NCBI GenBank assembly: GCA_029779995.1
Contig: JAKOZM010000289.1
Span: 1-28,900, forward strand
Origin: Actinomycetes bacterium
GTDB taxonomy: Bacteria; Actinomycetota; Actinomycetes; S36-B12; UBA10799
Length of the DNA: 28,900 nucleotides
Direction: 5' to 3'
The notes under the pieces were generated by a model. It did no database searches. It saw only the letters and a program-made list of their open reading frames with translations, and had not been told where the DNA came from. The position numbers and the translations under genes are program-made. Shown one piece after another: positions 13,239-20,285 of the stretch. How positions within the stretch are numbered: position 1 is the first letter of the stretch; every line of letters starts with the position of its first letter.

Positions 13239-14450
13239 ATGGGCTTCTTTGAGGTGCCGGCCTCGGCGTTGCGGCGTGCGAGGCTGGCCGAGGAGTTGCC
13301 GGTGGAAACCCCGGCGGTGTTCGAGCAGTTGTCCGGGCAGGTGCTGGCGCTGCCCGATCCGGGGGAGTTGACCGCCGAGCAGCGCCTGGGCGCGGTGCAG
13401 GCCGCGGCCCGTCTGCAGACGATGGTGGAGGCCTACCAGACCCAAGTGGCCGGGGTGTGTGACGCGCAGCAGGACTCCCGGGTGTTCGCCGCGGGGACGA
13501 CGGGGTCGATGGTGGCGGCGTTGACCGGGCAGAACCGGGCGGTGGGTTCGGCGATCGTGGGGCGGGCCCGGGATCTGCGGGGCATGCCGCACGTCGCGGA
13601 CGCCTACCGGGCGGGGGAGATCACGGGCCGGCATGTGCACCTGTTGTGCCGCGCCGCCGGGCGCCTGCCCCGGTTCGCGGTGTTGGAGGCGGACCTGGTC
13701 GCGGCGGCGGCGGTGATCGAACCGGCCGTACTGGCCCAGGTCCTCGCGGTGTTGGTTGCGCAGGACCGCCCGGAGGCCCCGGATGAGGATTATCGGGCGG
13801 CGCGGGCCAAACGCGGCCTGCACCTCTCGGATCTGGGCAACGGGTTGTACCGGGTGGATGGGCATCTGGATCAGGTGGCCGGGGCGCGGCTGCGCGACGC
13901 CCTGGCTTCGTTCACCGACCCGCCGGCTGTTGGTGATGACCGCACCCCGAGCCAGCGCCTGGCCGACGCGTTGGATGATCTGGTCAGTGCGGCACAGGCC
14001 AACACCAAACCGTTGGGGGTGTCGGGGGTGACGGTGCTGGTCGATGCCGAACAGTTGCCGGAGGGTGTCGGGGCGCGGCTGGAGGATGGCACTCTGCTGG
14101 GCCCGGACAGTTTCGCGTTGCTGGCTTGTTCGGCGGTGGTGTCGGTGATCCTGGGGGTGCGCCGGGCGGGCACGTTCGTCCCGTTGGCGTTGGGCCGCAC
14201 GCAGCGCCGCGCCAGTCACGCGCAGTGGGCGGCACTCATCGCCCGGGATCGAGGCTGCGTGCGCTGCGGGCGGGCGGCCCGCGGCTGTCACGCCCACCAC
14301 ATCGTGGCGTGGGCCGCGGGAGGCCGCACCGACGTCGATGCGATGTGTCTGCTGTGCCCACGGTGTCACGGCGATCTGCACAACGGCCGGTTCACCATCG
14401 AGATGGTCGGCGGCATCCCGCAGTGCGTGGCCGTGCGGCGAAGAACCTGA
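13239..14450 (+). CDS. DUF222 domain-containing HNH endonuclease (13E12 repeat family)
   Basis: A 403-residue protein with the DUF222 domain (about residues 30-320) followed by an HNH nuclease domain. The DUF222 part is Ala/Leu-rich and helical, with the typical LQTMVEAYQTQ and GEITGRHVHLLCRAAGRLP segments. The HNH part has CVRCG, HAHHIVAWAAGG and LCPRCHGDLHNG (about 342-390), giving two Cys pairs for a zinc ion plus the catalytic His and Asn-like positions. These genes are multicopy in many actinobacteria and are suspected to be selfish or defence-related nucleases, but no function is established. Codon use is even more GC-biased than its neighbours. The ribosome site GGAGGT is strong. I see no terminal repeats or target duplication. 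Confidence 0.92.
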   Translation: MGFFEVPASALRRARLAEELPVETPAVFEQLSGQVLALPDPGELTAEQRLGAVQAAARLQTMVEAYQTQVAGVCDAQQDSRVFAAGTTGSMVAALTGQNRAVGSAIVGRARDLRGMPHVADAYRAGEITGRHVHLLCRAAGRLPRFAVLEADLVAAAAVIEPAVLAQVLAVLVAQDRPEAPDEDYRAARAKRGLHLSDLGNGLYRVDGHLDQVAGARLRDALASFTDPPAVGDDRTPSQRLADALDDLVSAAQANTKPLGVSGVTVLVDAEQLPEGVGARLEDGTLLGPDSFALLACSAVVSVILGVRRAGTFVPLALGRTQRRASHAQWAALIARDRGCVRCGRAARGCHAHHIVAWAAGGRTDVDAMCLLCPRCHGDLHNGRFTIEMVGGIPQCVAVRRRT

Positions 14451-14765: not shown

Positions 14766-15605
14766 CTAAACCCGCGGCTCGGCGGCCTTCATCGGTGCGC
14801 CGGGCGTGAGCGGTTCGAATCGCACGGGCGCCTCGAACGCCGCGCGTCTGGTCGCCCTCCGGACAGCCCTCAGTAGCACGGGCCCCGCCACCAGGGTCAG
14901 GGCTGCGGTGAGGATCGCGCGCGGGATGTCCCAGCCCAACGACGTGGCCACCGTGAAGGCCAACCAGCGGCCCAGGTTTTCGCTCAAGGGTGCCCCTGCG
15001 ACGAACGACAACTCGCTCTGCCCGCCCAACGCCCAAGGCCAGAACGACAGATTCATGAGCAGTCCATACAGCAGCGAGCCGACTGCGCCATAGCCCATGA
15101 GCATCACGATCTCGGCCCGGCCCCGGATCTGGGGGAGGAGCCCGGCACCCATGGCGAACCAGCCAGCGGCAACCATCTGGAATGGCAGCCACGGGCCGAC
15201 CCCGGCAGTGAGCAGTGCGGATGTGAACAGGGCCAGGCTGCCCAGTGCAAACCCGAACGCCGGCCCCAGCGCCCGGCCGCCCAGCAGCAGCACCACGAAC
15301 ATCGGCTCGAGACCCGCGACACCGGCCCCGAGCGGGCGCAATGCGGTGGCCACGGCGGCCAGCACGGCCAGCATGGCAATGCCCTTCGCGTCGAGACCGC
15401 CGCTGCTGACGTCGGCGAACAGCACGGCCACCACCAGGGGCAGCAGGAGGGCGAAGAACCACGGCGCGTCGGTCGCGTGATCGGCCGCCAGGCTGGCTGG
15501 TGTGACGACGAATGGCCAAAAGAATGCGATCAGTCCCACGAGGCTCACGCCCGCGAGGGCTGCAACGGTGCGCGGCCGCGGTGCGATGGCGTGCAGTTGT
15601 GTCAT
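14766..15605 (-). CDS. ECF transporter substrate-binding S component (probably cobalamin, CbrT-like)
   Basis: A 279-residue membrane protein with about six hydrophobic helices and the loops expected of an energy-coupling factor S component: LGGRALGPAFGFALGSLALFTSA, then GPWLPFQMVAAGWFAMGAGLLP, the aromatic/Gly pattern of the ECF S superfamily. It should bind the vitamin and be driven by the EcfA/EcfT module encoded directly upstream. The ATG at 15603-15605 overlaps the ATPase stop (ATGA, 15602-15605). A C-terminal tail of about 35 residues rich in Arg and Pro follows the last helix. Assignment to cobalamin rests on the riboswitch at the head of the operon and on CbrT being the S component linked to B12 in other bacteria. 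A precursor such as cobinamide is equally possible. Confidence 0.82.
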   Translation of the reverse strand: MTQLHAIAPRPRTVAALAGVSLVGLIAFFWPFVVTPASLAADHATDAPWFFALLLPLVVAVLFADVSSGGLDAKGIAMLAVLAAVATALRPLGAGVAGLEPMFVVLLLGGRALGPAFGFALGSLALFTSALLTAGVGPWLPFQMVAAGWFAMGAGLLPQIRGRAEIVMLMGYGAVGSLLYGLLMNLSFWPWALGGQSELSFVAGAPLSENLGRWLAFTVATSLGWDIPRAILTAALTLVAGPVLLRAVRRATRRAAFEAPVRFEPLTPGAPMKAAEPRV

Positions 15606-17182
15606 AGCGAACACGCTTCTTCGACCGTCAGCACGGGCAGCGGACTGAGCACCTTCTGGATTTGCGGGGCGAAAGCCGGGGAGGATGTGAGGGCCGTCCG
15701 CACGTCGGCATCTGTGACCACCTCCCCGTCGGCCAGCACGATCACCCGATCGCCGACCAGGGCCACGAACTCCACATCGTGGGTAGCCACAAGGACGCTG
15801 GCACCCAGGTTCGCCAACCGATCGAGCCACCGAGAAAAGGCGACTTTGCCTGGGTAGTCCAGGCCTCGGGTCGGCTCGTCGAGAAGCACGATCCGAGGGG
15901 TTGCTGCGAGTTGGATCGCCAGCGCGAGCGCGAGTTGCTGCCCCGCGCTGAGATCACGGGGGTGGGTGTCCACGGCCACCGTGTCCACCAGATCTTGTAG
16001 TCGGTTCAGTGCTGACCCGGCGGGCTGGCCGGCGTCCCGGTCGGTGGCCGCACACTCGGCGGCCACCGAATCGGTGTAGAAGAGGTCAGTCGGATCCTGC
16101 GGAACGTAGGCGATGCGGCTGATCAGGTCGCCACCCTGCAGGGTCGCTGGATCGCGGCCGTCCACAGCCACCCGGCCAAGGTCGGGTCGGCGAGTGCCTG
16201 CCAGCACGTTCATGAGTGTGGACTTGCCAGCCCCGTTGCGGCCCATCAGTGCGGTCACCTGTCCGGCTCGCAGGTCCACCTCAACATCACGCAGTGCGTC
16301 CTCACGGCCGTATCGGACGCCGGTGTGAGCCAGGCTCGCCAGCACAGCAGCACCGGTGCGACGCGCAGGAGCGCTGAAAGGCAGAGACCGCAGGTCAGCG
16401 GCACGGCGGCGGGCCGCCCGCACGCTCAGCGGCAGCGGATCCCAGCCGAGGGCGTGGCCCAGTCTCACCACCGGGGGCTGCAAGCCGTGGCCGGCCATGG
16501 CATCGGCCGGGTCCTGCAGCGTTGCGATGGGAGCGTCGAGCCGGATGACGTGATCGGCGAACTCGATGACCCGTTCCAAGCGATGTTCAGCCATGACTAC
16601 CGTGATGGCTAGGTCGTGCACGAGGCGCTGGATTGCGGCCAGCACCTCTTCGGCGGCCGTGGGGTCCAGGGCGCTTGTTGGTTCATCGAGGACGAGCACC
16701 GCAGGCCCGCTGGTCAGCGCGGCTCCGATGGCCACCCGCTGCTGCTCACCTCCGGAGAGCGTGTCCAACGGCCGTTGCCGTAGTGCCACCAGACCGAGCA
16801 TGTCCAGGGTCTCCTCGACCCGTCGGCGCATCACATCGGGGGCGTATCCCAGGGACTCCATGGTGTAGGCCAACTCGTCCTCCACGGTGTCCGTGGTGAA
16901 TCCCGCCCGCGGGTTCTGACCCACGGTGCCCACCACCCCCGCCAGATCACGGGGGGCGTGCGTGCGCGTGTCCATGCCCGCTACCTCTACTCGGCCGGCC
17001 AAGGTACCTCCGGTGAAGTGCGGCACCAGCCCGTTGAGCAGATTCAGGAACGTTGACTTGCCACACCCCGTGCGGCCGATGACCAGGACGAGGTCGCCCT
17101 CGGGAATCTGCAGGTTCAGCCCGTCCAGCACTGGTCCGGCAGCCCCGTCGTGGGTGAAGGTGACGTCTTCGACCTTGATCAC
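15602..17182 (-). CDS. ECF transporter double ATPase (fused EcfA1-EcfA2)
   Basis: A 526-residue protein with two complete ABC ATPase domains in one chain. Domain 1 (about 1-230): Walker A GRTGCGKST, signature LSGGEQQR, Walker B VLVLDEPTSALD. Domain 2 (about 275-510): Walker A GRNGAGKST, a slightly divergent signature LSAGQQLALA, Walker B IVLLDEPTRGLD, then the switch His in VATHDVEF. It powers vitamin uptake with EcfT and the S component. I start at GTG 17182, which overlaps the EcfT stop (GTGA) and has GGAG six bases upstream; a GTG at 17194 is the alternative. The frame is open far upstream (to 17473), but only antisense-like sequence lies there. Confidence 0.93.
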   Translation of the reverse strand: MIKVEDVTFTHDGAAGPVLDGLNLQIPEGDLVLVIGRTGCGKSTFLNLLNGLVPHFTGGTLAGRVEVAGMDTRTHAPRDLAGVVGTVGQNPRAGFTTDTVEDELAYTMESLGYAPDVMRRRVEETLDMLGLVALRQRPLDTLSGGEQQRVAIGAALTSGPAVLVLDEPTSALDPTAAEEVLAAIQRLVHDLAITVVMAEHRLERVIEFADHVIRLDAPIATLQDPADAMAGHGLQPPVVRLGHALGWDPLPLSVRAARRRAADLRSLPFSAPARRTGAAVLASLAHTGVRYGREDALRDVEVDLRAGQVTALMGRNGAGKSTLMNVLAGTRRPDLGRVAVDGRDPATLQGGDLISRIAYVPQDPTDLFYTDSVAAECAATDRDAGQPAGSALNRLQDLVDTVAVDTHPRDLSAGQQLALALAIQLAATPRIVLLDEPTRGLDYPGKVAFSRWLDRLANLGASVLVATHDVEFVALVGDRVIVLADGEVVTDADVRTALTSSPAFAPQIQKVLSPLPVLTVEEACSL

Positions 17183-18231
17183 GCTGTGCTCCACGGCATT
17201 GGTGGTGGCGGAGTGAAGGTGGCAGGCAGGGCGGCGGCGAGGACGGCGGTTGTCGCCAGCAGAGGTAGCGTCGGCCACGTCAACGGCACAGTGATCGTCC
17301 CGGTAGCGCTGAGCAGAACGGCGGCACCCGCCAGTACTCCGGTGCCGGCAGCCAACGTCTCCGGCCAGCGCCACGGATCGGGTCGATAGCGGGTGCGAGC
17401 CGTCCAGCGACCAGCGACCAGGATGCCGCCCACCGCCAGGGCCATCCCGATGACGAGCAGGGCCCAGCCCCAACCGCTGGCGCCGAGTACGGCGAACAGG
17501 CCAAGTGCGATGCCGACCAGGCCTGCCAGGACCAGCGTGGCCTGCAGCGCCCGTTCACCGGGACGCACCGCAGTGGTGCGACCGTACCCGCGGGTGTCCA
17601 TCGCGGCCGCCAGGTTGATCGCGTCATCCAGGGACGACTCCAGCACGGGAACCGCCGCCTCGGACATCGCGCGCAGCCCGCGCGTCGGCCGTCCCCGCAG
17701 GCGGCGGGCCTGCATGACGCGGCGGACATTGATCATGATGCGAGGGGCCAACGAGAGGGCCACCACTGCTGCCACCCCTACGTGATACAGCCCGGCGGGC
17801 AGCGCCTTCAGCAGTCGCACGGGACTGGCCAGGGAATTGGCAGCACCCACGCAGATGAGCAGCACAGCCAGTTGCGCGCCCTGAATGAACGCGATGGCCA
17901 CCATTTCAGCGGTCACGACACCCCCGATCGTCACCCCGGCCATCCATTCCGGCAGTCCGATGCTTGGCAGGGTGAACAGCGTCGTCGTCCCCACCCGCAG
18001 ACCGAAGACGATTCCGAAGAGGATCCGGATGACGATTGCGAACAGGGCCAGGCGCACAAAGACACTGAACGCCCGGGCCCACTGGGCCTGCGGCCGCCGG
18101 GCCATCACGACCAGGGTCGCGACAGCGGCGATGAGACCGAGCAGCAACGGATTTGTGGTTCTGGTGGCGGCCGCACCAAGCCCCAAGGCCCAGACCCACC
18201 AGGCCCCCGGATGCAGCCACCGCGAACTCAC
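17179..18231 (-). CDS. ecfT: ECF transporter transmembrane subunit EcfT (CbiQ family)
   Basis: A 350-residue membrane protein of the CbiQ/EcfT family that couples the ATPases to the S component. The two cytoplasmic coupling motifs are visible: ARRLRGRPTRG near residues 175-185 and the second, DTRGYGRT, near 212-219, following SSLDDAINLAAAM. Hydrophobic helices lie before and after these coupling helices. The C-terminal part (about 230-335) carries extra helices beyond the minimal EcfT core, ending in a Pro-rich tail. Its ATG (18229-18231) overlaps the stop of the upstream secreted protein gene by four bases and its stop overlaps the ATPase start, so the operon is tightly coupled. Confidence 0.92.
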   Translation of the reverse strand: MSSRWLHPGAWWVWALGLGAAATRTTNPLLLGLIAAVATLVVMARRPQAQWARAFSVFVRLALFAIVIRILFGIVFGLRVGTTTLFTLPSIGLPEWMAGVTIGGVVTAEMVAIAFIQGAQLAVLLICVGAANSLASPVRLLKALPAGLYHVGVAAVVALSLAPRIMINVRRVMQARRLRGRPTRGLRAMSEAAVPVLESSLDDAINLAAAMDTRGYGRTTAVRPGERALQATLVLAGLVGIALGLFAVLGASGWGWALLVIGMALAVGGILVAGRWTARTRYRPDPWRWPETLAAGTGVLAGAAVLLSATGTITVPLTWPTLPLLATTAVLAAALPATFTPPPPMPWSTA

Positions 18232-19049
18232 TCTCGCCCCCGCCTGGCGAGCAGGGCCAGTCCGAGTAGGGCCGCGATCATGGCGGCGCCGATCGCGGCG
18301 ATCCAGGCCGGCGTCTGGGGTGTCGAATCCTTCGGGGTGGCCGACTCCACGGCCAACGCCACGGGGGAGGGGGCGGTCGCGGTCGTCGTCGCCGAGGGCG
18401 ACGCGCTGGCTGGTGCGGTCGGGCTGGCAGAGGGACTGCTCGGATCGGCCAATTCAGGGATGGCCGGCGCTGGAACGACCGGTGCCACTGGTGTGGTCGC
18501 GGGCACGCTCGGTTTCGCCGAGGGGGGCTTGGGCGACGCCGAGCGAACCGACTGGCCAGGGCACTCCGTGGCGGGGAAGCCGGCGATGCCGCAGATCAAC
18601 CCGCTGCTGTGGAAACGCAGTTCGGCGACCTGCTGCAGCACCTGCAGACCCGTAGCGCTCTCGGGGGCGGTGAGGCACTGCACGGAAGTGGCTGGAGGAG
18701 TCTCACCCACCGGAGCGATACCCGCAGGGCCATAGTCGAGGACCAGCGCGACCCGTTTTTGACCCACCGGAGCGGCCGGCTGTCCGGGGCACAGTGCTTC
18801 ATAGGAACTGGCCGTACCCGGCGCGGTGGCCTGGGATCCGTCCTGCGGCGAGACGACGAACCGGTAGCCTTCGACGCCGGCGTCGGGCGGCACGCGGAAA
18901 CCCGAGCCGCGCGAGGAGTACGTCCACGTGTCACCCCCGACCCAGTAGGACCAGTACCGGTAGGTGGTCTCGGCCTGGGCGGCGCCCGGGAGCAGCGCGG
19001 GGGCCAGGAGCACCGCCACGCCGATCCCGAACGCCAGCCGTCGGATCAT
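18228..19049 (-). CDS. Secreted, membrane-anchored protein resembling the SCO2322 family
   Basis: A 273-residue exported protein. The signal peptide is residues 1-26 (cleavage after AQA). A folded domain (about 27-170) opens with TTYRYWSYWVGGDTWTYSS and has VEGYRFVVS and several Cys residues (CPG, VQCL, GLICG, TECPG). A Pro/Ser/Ala/Thr-rich stalk (about 172-240) follows, then one hydrophobic helix (about 246-266) and an Arg-rich stop-transfer end, so the domain is displayed outside the membrane on a stalk. The start resembles what I recall of SCO2322-type proteins found beside ECF genes in actinobacteria. It overlaps the preceding toroid gene and the following ecfT by four bases each, so a role as an extracellular partner of the vitamin transporter is likely but unproven. 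Confidence 0.72.
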   Translation of the reverse strand: MIRRLAFGIGVAVLLAPALLPGAAQAETTYRYWSYWVGGDTWTYSSRGSGFRVPPDAGVEGYRFVVSPQDGSQATAPGTASSYEALCPGQPAAPVGQKRVALVLDYGPAGIAPVGETPPATSVQCLTAPESATGLQVLQQVAELRFHSSGLICGIAGFPATECPGQSVRSASPKPPSAKPSVPATTPVAPVVPAPAIPELADPSSPSASPTAPASASPSATTTATAPSPVALAVESATPKDSTPQTPAWIAAIGAAMIAALLGLALLARRGRE

Positions 19050-20083
19050 CGCTTGGTCGCCGCCAACCGTTTCACGAGGTTCATGTCACCGAAGTCTTTC
19101 GGATTCTCGCCTGTGGCGTTGGCCAGCAGGATCAACAGCGCCAGAGAGCCCGGCGCGTCATCCCCGGCGCCTGAGATCCACGAATCCGCGTCCTTCTTGA
19201 GGAATCTCACGGTCGTCTGGACGGCCTTGCGACCGGATCCAGCGTTTGCCAGGGCCAGCGCAGCCGAGGCAGTGCCGGCGTAGTCCGTACCGGGGTACCC
19301 CCCGCCGTAGGGCAGAGCGCCATCGAGTTTCTGCAGGCGTTTGTGGAGGTAGCCCAGAGCGGCTCCGTCCGCGCTTGCCTTGTCGTTGGCCTTTCCCGAG
19401 CACTTCAGAGACGGTGCCGATGGCCGGATGCGCACTGGTGCCGGCAGCGTCATACCGCCGCCCAGCCACAGGGCCGCCTGTGCGGTGGCCCCGTCATTGG
19501 GTGCCGGCAGGCTGGTGTCGAATTGCATCGCACCTCGCTTGGCCTTGGGCGCCGCGCAGCGCAACTGCACCTCGCGCAGGTAGGACTGCTGTGGTGAGCG
19601 GGTCACCAGGCTCATCGCAGCGATGGCCAGAGCCGTGGAGGCCGTGTCGGAGGTGGCGCCGGCTTCGGGGAAGTAGGCGAAGCCATTGTCCGGGTTCTGC
19701 TTGGTGGCGATCCAGCGGGCGGCCCGCTTGGCCTGTTTGCGGTTGCCGGTCTGCGCCAGAGCGGCAACCGCGAGTGCGGTGCCGTTGAGTTCCTGACCCG
19801 TCAGGTTCGCTGCGTCGGCCGGCTGGCAGGGCACCGACAGGTCGGTGCGGTACTCCATGAAGCCGCCGTCAGCACACTGCTGCTTCTTCAACCAGCGCAC
19901 GGCATCGCCGGGCACCTTCTGACCGGCGGCAGTCAACGCCAGGATCGACAGCGACTGCCGGTACACGCCGTCGTAGGTGGGGTCGCCGGCGCCGTACAGG
20001 CCGGAGTCGGCAGCTTGGGCCGGGACGGCTGACAGTAGAACTCCGCCAGCGGCGGCTATTGTCACGAGGGATTTGATGAACAC
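19046..20083 (-). CDS. Secreted alpha/alpha-toroid repeat protein (prenyltransferase/squalene-oxidase-like), candidate B12-binding protein
   Basis: A 345-residue exported protein; signal peptide residues 1-24 (cleavage after AQA). Repeated helical units carry the QxxDGGF-type turns typical of terpenoid-cyclase/prenyltransferase toroids: QQCADGGFMEY, KQNPDNGFAYFPEAG, then SDTASTALAIAAM and YAGTASAALALANAG, repeating at roughly 60-90 residue spacing. The catalytic acid motifs of cyclases are not seen, so it is probably a binding protein. It is the first gene after a cobalamin riboswitch and runs into ECF transporter genes. Animal intrinsic factor and transcobalamin use the same alpha6/alpha6 toroid to bind B12, which makes cobalamin capture the leading idea. 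The GTG start at 20083 has AAGGAG six bases upstream. Confidence 0.8.
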   Translation of the reverse strand: MFIKSLVTIAAAGGVLLSAVPAQAADSGLYGAGDPTYDGVYRQSLSILALTAAGQKVPGDAVRWLKKQQCADGGFMEYRTDLSVPCQPADAANLTGQELNGTALAVAALAQTGNRKQAKRAARWIATKQNPDNGFAYFPEAGATSDTASTALAIAAMSLVTRSPQQSYLREVQLRCAAPKAKRGAMQFDTSLPAPNDGATAQAALWLGGGMTLPAPVRIRPSAPSLKCSGKANDKASADGAALGYLHKRLQKLDGALPYGGGYPGTDYAGTASAALALANAGSGRKAVQTTVRFLKKDADSWISGAGDDAPGSLALLILLANATGENPKDFGDMNLVKRLAATKR

Positions 20084-20128
20084 GCGTTGCTCCTTAACAG
20101 CGGTCGCAACGACCGTCAGGCACGCGTG
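20081..20128 (-). promoter_or_regulatory. Candidate expression platform masking the ribosome site and GTG start
   Basis: In the minus-strand RNA, CACGCGU (20128-20122) is fully complementary to ACGCGUG (20087-20081), which contains the GTG start codon. Between them sit a perfect hairpin CGGUCG-UUG-CGACCG (20115-20101) and the AAGGAG ribosome site (20095-20090). Folding this way would close off translation start. This is drawn by eye, not computed. Confidence 0.4.
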
Positions 20129-20171
20129 AACGTGACCGGGCCGTCTGTAACCTCGACAGAAATCGGGCCGT

Positions 20172-20285
20172 TTCCGTAGATGCCAGGTGCTCCGACTGTG
20201 ACGGTTGCGGGTCAGTGCCGGGTTTCCACCGGTCTTCCCCTGGACTCATCCGGTAACGCGCCTCCAGTTAAGCAGGTTCCCTCAC
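20172..20285 (-). promoter_or_regulatory. Cobalamin (B12) riboswitch
   Basis: On the minus strand the leader of the toroid-ECF operon carries the conserved cobalamin-riboswitch core: GGGGAAGACCGGTGGAAACC (20240-20221), then the B12-box-like ACCCGCAACCGT (20212-20201) in its actinobacterial form, then GGAGCACCTGGC (20193-20182). A CTGGA/TCCAG pairing encloses the upstream part. The gene start is about 100 bases downstream, leaving room for an expression platform. The outer limits given are approximate. The class is well known to repress B12 uptake or synthesis genes when adenosyl- or other cobalamin binds. Confidence 0.87.

Follow-up and report, generated by a model that had tools for sequence, protein, structure and literature searches.

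We analysed a window of 28,900 nucleotides (the whole of the actinobacterial stretch presented above) and found in it an operon for the uptake of corrinoids (vitamin B12), in our judgement the probable function of this locus. Behind a cobalamin riboswitch it encodes two exported proteins, a toroid and a membrane-anchored beta domain whose halves appear circularly permuted, followed by an energy-coupling factor (ECF) importer. The two exported chains probably form a split cage resembling that of intrinsic factor and transcobalamin, which would feed the importer. The features concerned, in window coordinates and all on the minus strand, are the following:

20177..20252 (-): AdoCbl-II (adenosylcobalamin) cobalamin riboswitch aptamer, Rfam RF01689
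20090..20095 (-): AAGGAG, resembling a ribosome-binding site, 6 bases 5' of the GTG start; putative function, from the sequence
19046..20083 (-): exported alpha6/alpha6 toroid protein, 345 amino acids, SCO2321-like
18228..19049 (-): stalked, membrane-anchored exported protein, 273 amino acids, SCO2322 family, NCBIfam NF040672
18765..18971 (-): A half of its beta domain, residues 27-95, equivalent to the C-terminal half of DUF4430
18552..18764 (-): B half of its beta domain, residues 96-166, equivalent to the N-terminal half of DUF4430
18237..18308 (-): its C-terminal membrane helix, residues 248-271, preceded by a Pro/Ser/Thr-rich stalk
17179..18231 (-): EcfT, CbiQ-family transmembrane coupling protein, PF02361 (32.8 bits, cut-off 25)
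15602..17182 (-): fused EcfA-EcfA' ATPase with two ABC_tran (PF00005) stretches, start placed by the overlap
14766..15605 (-): ECF S component, 279 amino acids, PF12822 (32.1 bits, cut-off 30.7), start placed by the ATGA overlap

Riboswitch and operon structure

The leader scores 44.9 bits with RF01689, over the gathering score of 36.5 (E 6.4e-8, Rfam). 3' of the riboswitch, the genes for the toroid, the stalked protein, EcfT, the fused EcfA pair and the S component follow one another on the minus strand, with 4-base overlaps at all four junctions (in order ATGA, GTGA, GTGA, ATGA). PF02361, PF00005 (in two stretches) and PF12822 are each matched over their cut-offs, as expected of an ECF transporter, and the fused EcfA protein also exceeds the cut-off of TIGR01166, cbiO. 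Searched against the PDB as a single sequence (phmmer, to E 10), the S component matched no ECF chain, S components being too divergent for this to count as an exclusion. The fold of the leader RNA was no better than that of shuffled sequences (z 0.56), and the promoter, terminator and tRNA scans gave no hit.

The initial annotation had described this operon as a riboswitch, two exported proteins, EcfT, a fused EcfA and an S component joined by 4-base overlaps, and both the description and its coordinates hold. The same is true of the stalk and membrane anchor that it gave to the second exported protein, and of the missing cyclase acid motif in the toroid, considered below.

Conservation of the riboswitch-toroid association

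A genome scan for the toroid returned 525 encoding stretches, the best 80 of which were kept as related loci. In seven of these scanned with Rfam, a cobalamin-class riboswitch lies 5' of the toroid in all seven. A model built from those seven loci and the window (threshold E < 1e-6) detects the riboswitch 5' of the toroid in 78 of 80 loci, or in 71 of 73 when only loci outside the model building are counted; L049 has just a 17-bit fragment, and L070 begins inside the toroid gene. The association between riboswitch and toroid exceeds chance. The initial annotation had named, as one condition that would refute its reading, toroid homologues consistently lacking B12 riboswitches; with 78 of 80 loci carrying one, this check did not refute it.

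The anchored protein follows the toroid in 77/80 loci by tblastn (all except L013, L034 and L070) and in 78/80 by hidden Markov model, EcfT is present in 67/80 and the S component in 55/80. In ten of the 13 loci lacking EcfT the sequence stops within ~550 bases of the last operon gene recognised, the exceptions being L007, L024 and L070.

Co-occurrence of the toroid with SCO2322 or DUF4430 was examined in 198 genomes drawn evenly across Actinomycetota, to which G001, the Candidatus Nanopelagicales genome containing L001, belongs. The toroid occurs in 57 of them (E 1e-10), SCO2322 in 32 and DUF4430 in 34. A match to SCO2322 or DUF4430 is present in 49 of the 57 genomes with a toroid as against 14 of the 141 others, a difference whose significance is inflated by the shared ancestry of the sampled genomes. 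In 27 of 32 genomes the toroid lies within 5 kb of the SCO2322-type match. Eight toroid genomes have neither match: on inspection, L185, L186, L187 and L189 show a natural-order beta domain, L184 is cut by a contig end, L183 has toroid and ECF genes with no beta domain seen, and L188 and L190 have a lone toroid. Four of the eight (L184-L187) carry a cobalamin riboswitch (Rfam).

Some peculiarities of single loci were recorded along the way. L007 and L024 have riboswitch, toroid and beta protein, and no ECF genes were found in the downstream sequence available. At L070:900-1800 the toroid gene seems, by eye, to pass into unrelated coding sequence, possibly in a chimeric contig. L006, L011 and L030 are perhaps wrongly binned, being recorded as Rubrivirga, Bifidobacterium breve and Acidobacteria, odd sources for such operons. 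In the window itself, a DUF222/HNH endonuclease gene on the opposite strand (13239-14450, +) adjoins the S-component end of the operon.

The toroid protein

A hydropathy script finds a hydrophobic stretch at the N-terminus of each exported protein, and the signal peptide of the toroid spans, by eye, about residues 1-24. Structure prediction gives twelve helices (predicted local distance difference test, pLDDT, 89.6), placing the protein among alpha6/alpha6 toroids as a fold class only. In a VIA structure comparison, toroid folds fill the best 50 of 994 aligned chains, and transcobalamin is absent among those 50, which does not count as an exclusion. Among the matches listed, the protein is closest in sequence and fold to squalene-hopene cyclases and drimenyl diphosphate synthase. 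DxDD is the acid motif of class II terpene cyclases; it is absent from the window toroid and occurs in 1 of the 100 proteins P0001-P0100, of which P0001 is the window's own. The NCBIfam model SCO2321_fam (NF053823) scores it at 215.8 bits, below the cut-off of 300. PF01122, Cobalamin_bind, is not among the Pfam matches of the window toroid to E 10; it is matched by 2 of 32 relatives in set A1 and 4 of 13 in set A6 (to E 1; best 2.1e-5). No toroid relative was found in viral contigs.

The anchored beta chain and its circular permutation

The second exported protein matches SCO2322_fam (NF040672) with 138.7 bits, over the cut-off of 85, and the hydropathy script also finds its C-terminal hydrophobic stretch. 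Its AF2 model has block means of 84-98 for residues 31-160 and a whole-protein mean of 77.4. Judged by its sequence, the chain is a circularly permuted member of the DUF4430/transcobalamin beta-domain family: its strand order is b4-b5-b1-b2-helix-b3, that of an ordinary DUF4430 b1-b2-helix-b3-b4-b5. In a first permutation test the A half alone was unsupported, 71 of 300 shuffles reaching its score. Comparing swapped with unswapped halves by sequence set gave 75.6 vs 22.5%, 67.8 vs 41.2%, 42.5 vs 28.0%, 49.9 vs 37.7%, 76.5 vs 49.3% and 81.2 vs 59.5%, so that the gain varies with the set. We accepted the permutation because the natural-order relatives decided the question; it is through homology to them that the chain is assigned, as a permuted form, to the DUF4430-type beta domains.

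Residues 94-163 of the model align to residues 313-381 of transcobalamin (2v3n). Foldseek found nothing credible for the model in either the PDB or BFVD, Pfam searches gave no direct PF14478 match for the window protein or the permuted members, and profiles of SCO2322, permuted or natural-order type did not find transcobalamin in the PDB. PF28005.1 is the precomputed annotation of SCO2322 relatives, and PF28005 was unmatched in the Pfam copy scanned. Two side observations concern this chain: P0172 (394 amino acids) is a shortened toroid running on into a permuted beta domain, and the beta gene of the L001/L152 genome is split over two frames by a frameshift or assembly error.

Natural-order and fused relatives

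All of L101-L110, with DUF4430 in natural order, carry a cobalamin riboswitch (Rfam), which in L101-L109 precedes the DUF4430 gene by ~2.6-3.5 kb. DUF4430, EcfAA and toroid form a single run at nine of these ten loci, L104 being cut by a contig end. Among the nine, the S component is a separate gene in eight, and L110 has it fused with the toroid; phmmer recognised EcfT in L103 and L107 only, and elsewhere it is presumed from a space of fitting size. The two orders of the beta halves occur in proteins that are equivalent by their place in the operon.

Fused forms are found as well. L110:3917-5953, P0111 and P0112 each join an ECF S component and an exported toroid in one open reading frame (ORF). 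Toroid and beta domain share a single chain, toroid first, in L136, L186 and L187. All three operons stand behind a cobalamin riboswitch, which in L186 and L187 is separated from the fused gene by a small DUF4430-like gene. In L116 the riboswitch is followed by a single ORF that combines a toroid with DUF4430-like repeats, neither of them reaching its Pfam cut-off; next come DUF4430 and an ORF that by eye looks like EcfT, and after these EcfAA and S. Across L133-L151 an upstream riboswitch was found by Rfam or R1 at 18 of 19 loci; the remaining one, L146, is on a contig that starts 237 bases 5' of the toroid ORF.

Unusual large ORFs were also seen. One with PQQ_2 beta-propeller and DUF5719 matches lies between riboswitch and DUF4430 at L102:4573-7254, and giant ORFs of ~1540-1850 amino acids with DUF4430 matches adjoin ECF genes at L119:3836-8449, L117:1634-7174 and L118:7907-13411. 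That of L119 starts at an AdoCbl-II riboswitch and shows immunoglobulin-like and beta-propeller matches as well.

Proposed function and alternatives

We propose that B12 scarcity would lead the riboswitch to permit expression, upon which the cell would export the alpha6/alpha6 toroid and the stalked, membrane-anchored beta domain. Intrinsic factor in split form still binds B12 tightly (PMC6257451), and therefore a two-chain clamp is proposed, in which soluble toroid and anchored beta chain would hold the corrinoid between them. Because the toroid itself is unanchored, it is probably kept on the beta chain in part by the ligand. The loaded complex would then present or release the corrinoid to the S component, a direct hand-over fitting the S-toroid fusions (P0111, P0112, L110), and the EcfT/EcfA motor would drive S-component transport through the membrane. 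The idea of the initial annotation that the exported pair is a bacterial counterpart of the toroid-plus-beta carriers is supported, if unproven: it agrees with every test made, including the frequency of the riboswitch, the permuted DUF4430 beta domain and the single-chain toroid and beta proteins of riboswitch/ECF operons.

Several results weigh against this proposal. Only 2 of 9 toroid-less DUF4430 loci (L111-L115, L117-L120) have a riboswitch by Rfam, namely L114 and L119, and R1 gives weak matches only on the eight other than L119; because the riboswitch is rare there, DUF4430 may have other ligands. The window proteins were not linked directly to transcobalamin by any sequence search (in one search, among the best 60 of 75 matches), and the DUF4430 bridge finds transcobalamin-1 and -2 weakly, at E 0.16 and 0.57, between which an unrelated chain ranks at 0.27.

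The beta (DUF4430-type) protein or the S component might capture B12 alone, the toroid being a scaffold, a loss inhibitor or the partner of another ligand. Riboswitch, beta protein and ECF genes do occur with no toroid nearby (L133, L135, L150), and ECF-CbrT of Lactobacillus is a B12 transporter made of an S component and ECF module (PMC5997447). We regard this as unlikely in view of the toroid within 5 kb in 27/32 SCO2322-type genomes and the fusions of toroid with beta domain (L136, L186, L187) or S component (L110, P0111, P0112). Slightly less likely still is an imported ligand other than complete B12, such as cobalt, or else a precursor or breakdown product of corrinoids like cobinamide. 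Some metal transporters are also preceded by B12 riboswitches (PMC2667541), and the substrate of an ECF system is unreadable from sequence, the S component here matching no ECF chain in the PDB; against this, a large cage would seem needless for a metal ion, and a CbiM-type metal S component is not indicated because the S component of the window matches PF12822 as its sole Pfam family to E 10. The toroid's resemblance to squalene-hopene cyclases and drimenyl diphosphate synthase, among the matches listed, could make it an exported cyclase or prenyltransferase-type enzyme, in the operon by happenstance. This terpene-cyclase reading was set aside as very improbable because DxDD is absent (in the window and in 99/100 of P0001-P0100) and an exported protein is tightly linked to B12 riboswitches and ECF genes.

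Wider meaning

To our knowledge, the extracellular capture of scarce B12 by Gram-positive bacteria is poorly understood. We tentatively suggest, with rather more doubt than confidence, an actinobacterial B12-receptor family assembled from toroid and beta modules (split, fused, attached to the wall or the membrane, joined to S, and in one branch permuted), with which the animal carriers would share ancestry and in which the vitamin would glue split chains before ECF hand-over. If true, a B12 receptor module could be named for many actinobacteria, Streptomyces included, and a function given to the SCO2321 and SCO2322 families and at least some DUF4430 proteins. It would also supply a two-chain model of intrinsic factor from nature and a naturally occurring circular permutation in which both orders are retained at the same operon position, and would raise the question of the origin of animal B12 carriers.

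Comparison with known systems

Among the open-licence PMC papers that the searches listed, none describes such a system by its title or the start of its abstract, and the tags SCO2321-SCO2325 bring up, by listing, only skin-delivery peptide work. The families matching the two exported proteins, SCO2321_fam and SCO2322_fam (NCBIfam), have names that assign no function. The DUF4430 literature includes vertebrate B12 binders, with DUF4430 at the C-terminus of transcobalamin (PMC4350170).

Surface B12 lipoproteins of Bacteroides, BtuG and DUF4465 (PMC6143338, PMC10404256, PMC13398666), similarly catch B12 at the surface before a transporter; they belong to Bacteroides and are likened by description only. 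ECF-CbrT of Lactobacillus delbrueckii, for which B12 import is demonstrated (PMC5997447), also has EcfT, an EcfA pair and an S component, but there several S components share a motor, while here motor, S component and two exported proteins lie in one operon. Unlike the animal carriers, the window has two genes, a beta chain that is apparently permuted and membrane-anchored, a coupled ECF importer, and a toroid nearer in sequence to cyclases than to transcobalamin. Like transcobalamin, intrinsic factor and haptocorrin, it combines an alpha6/alpha6 toroid with a DUF4430-type beta domain, both exported; the cleaved form of intrinsic factor is likewise functional as two chains (PMC6257451), and L136, L186 and L187 repeat the toroid-then-beta order of transcobalamin within a single chain.
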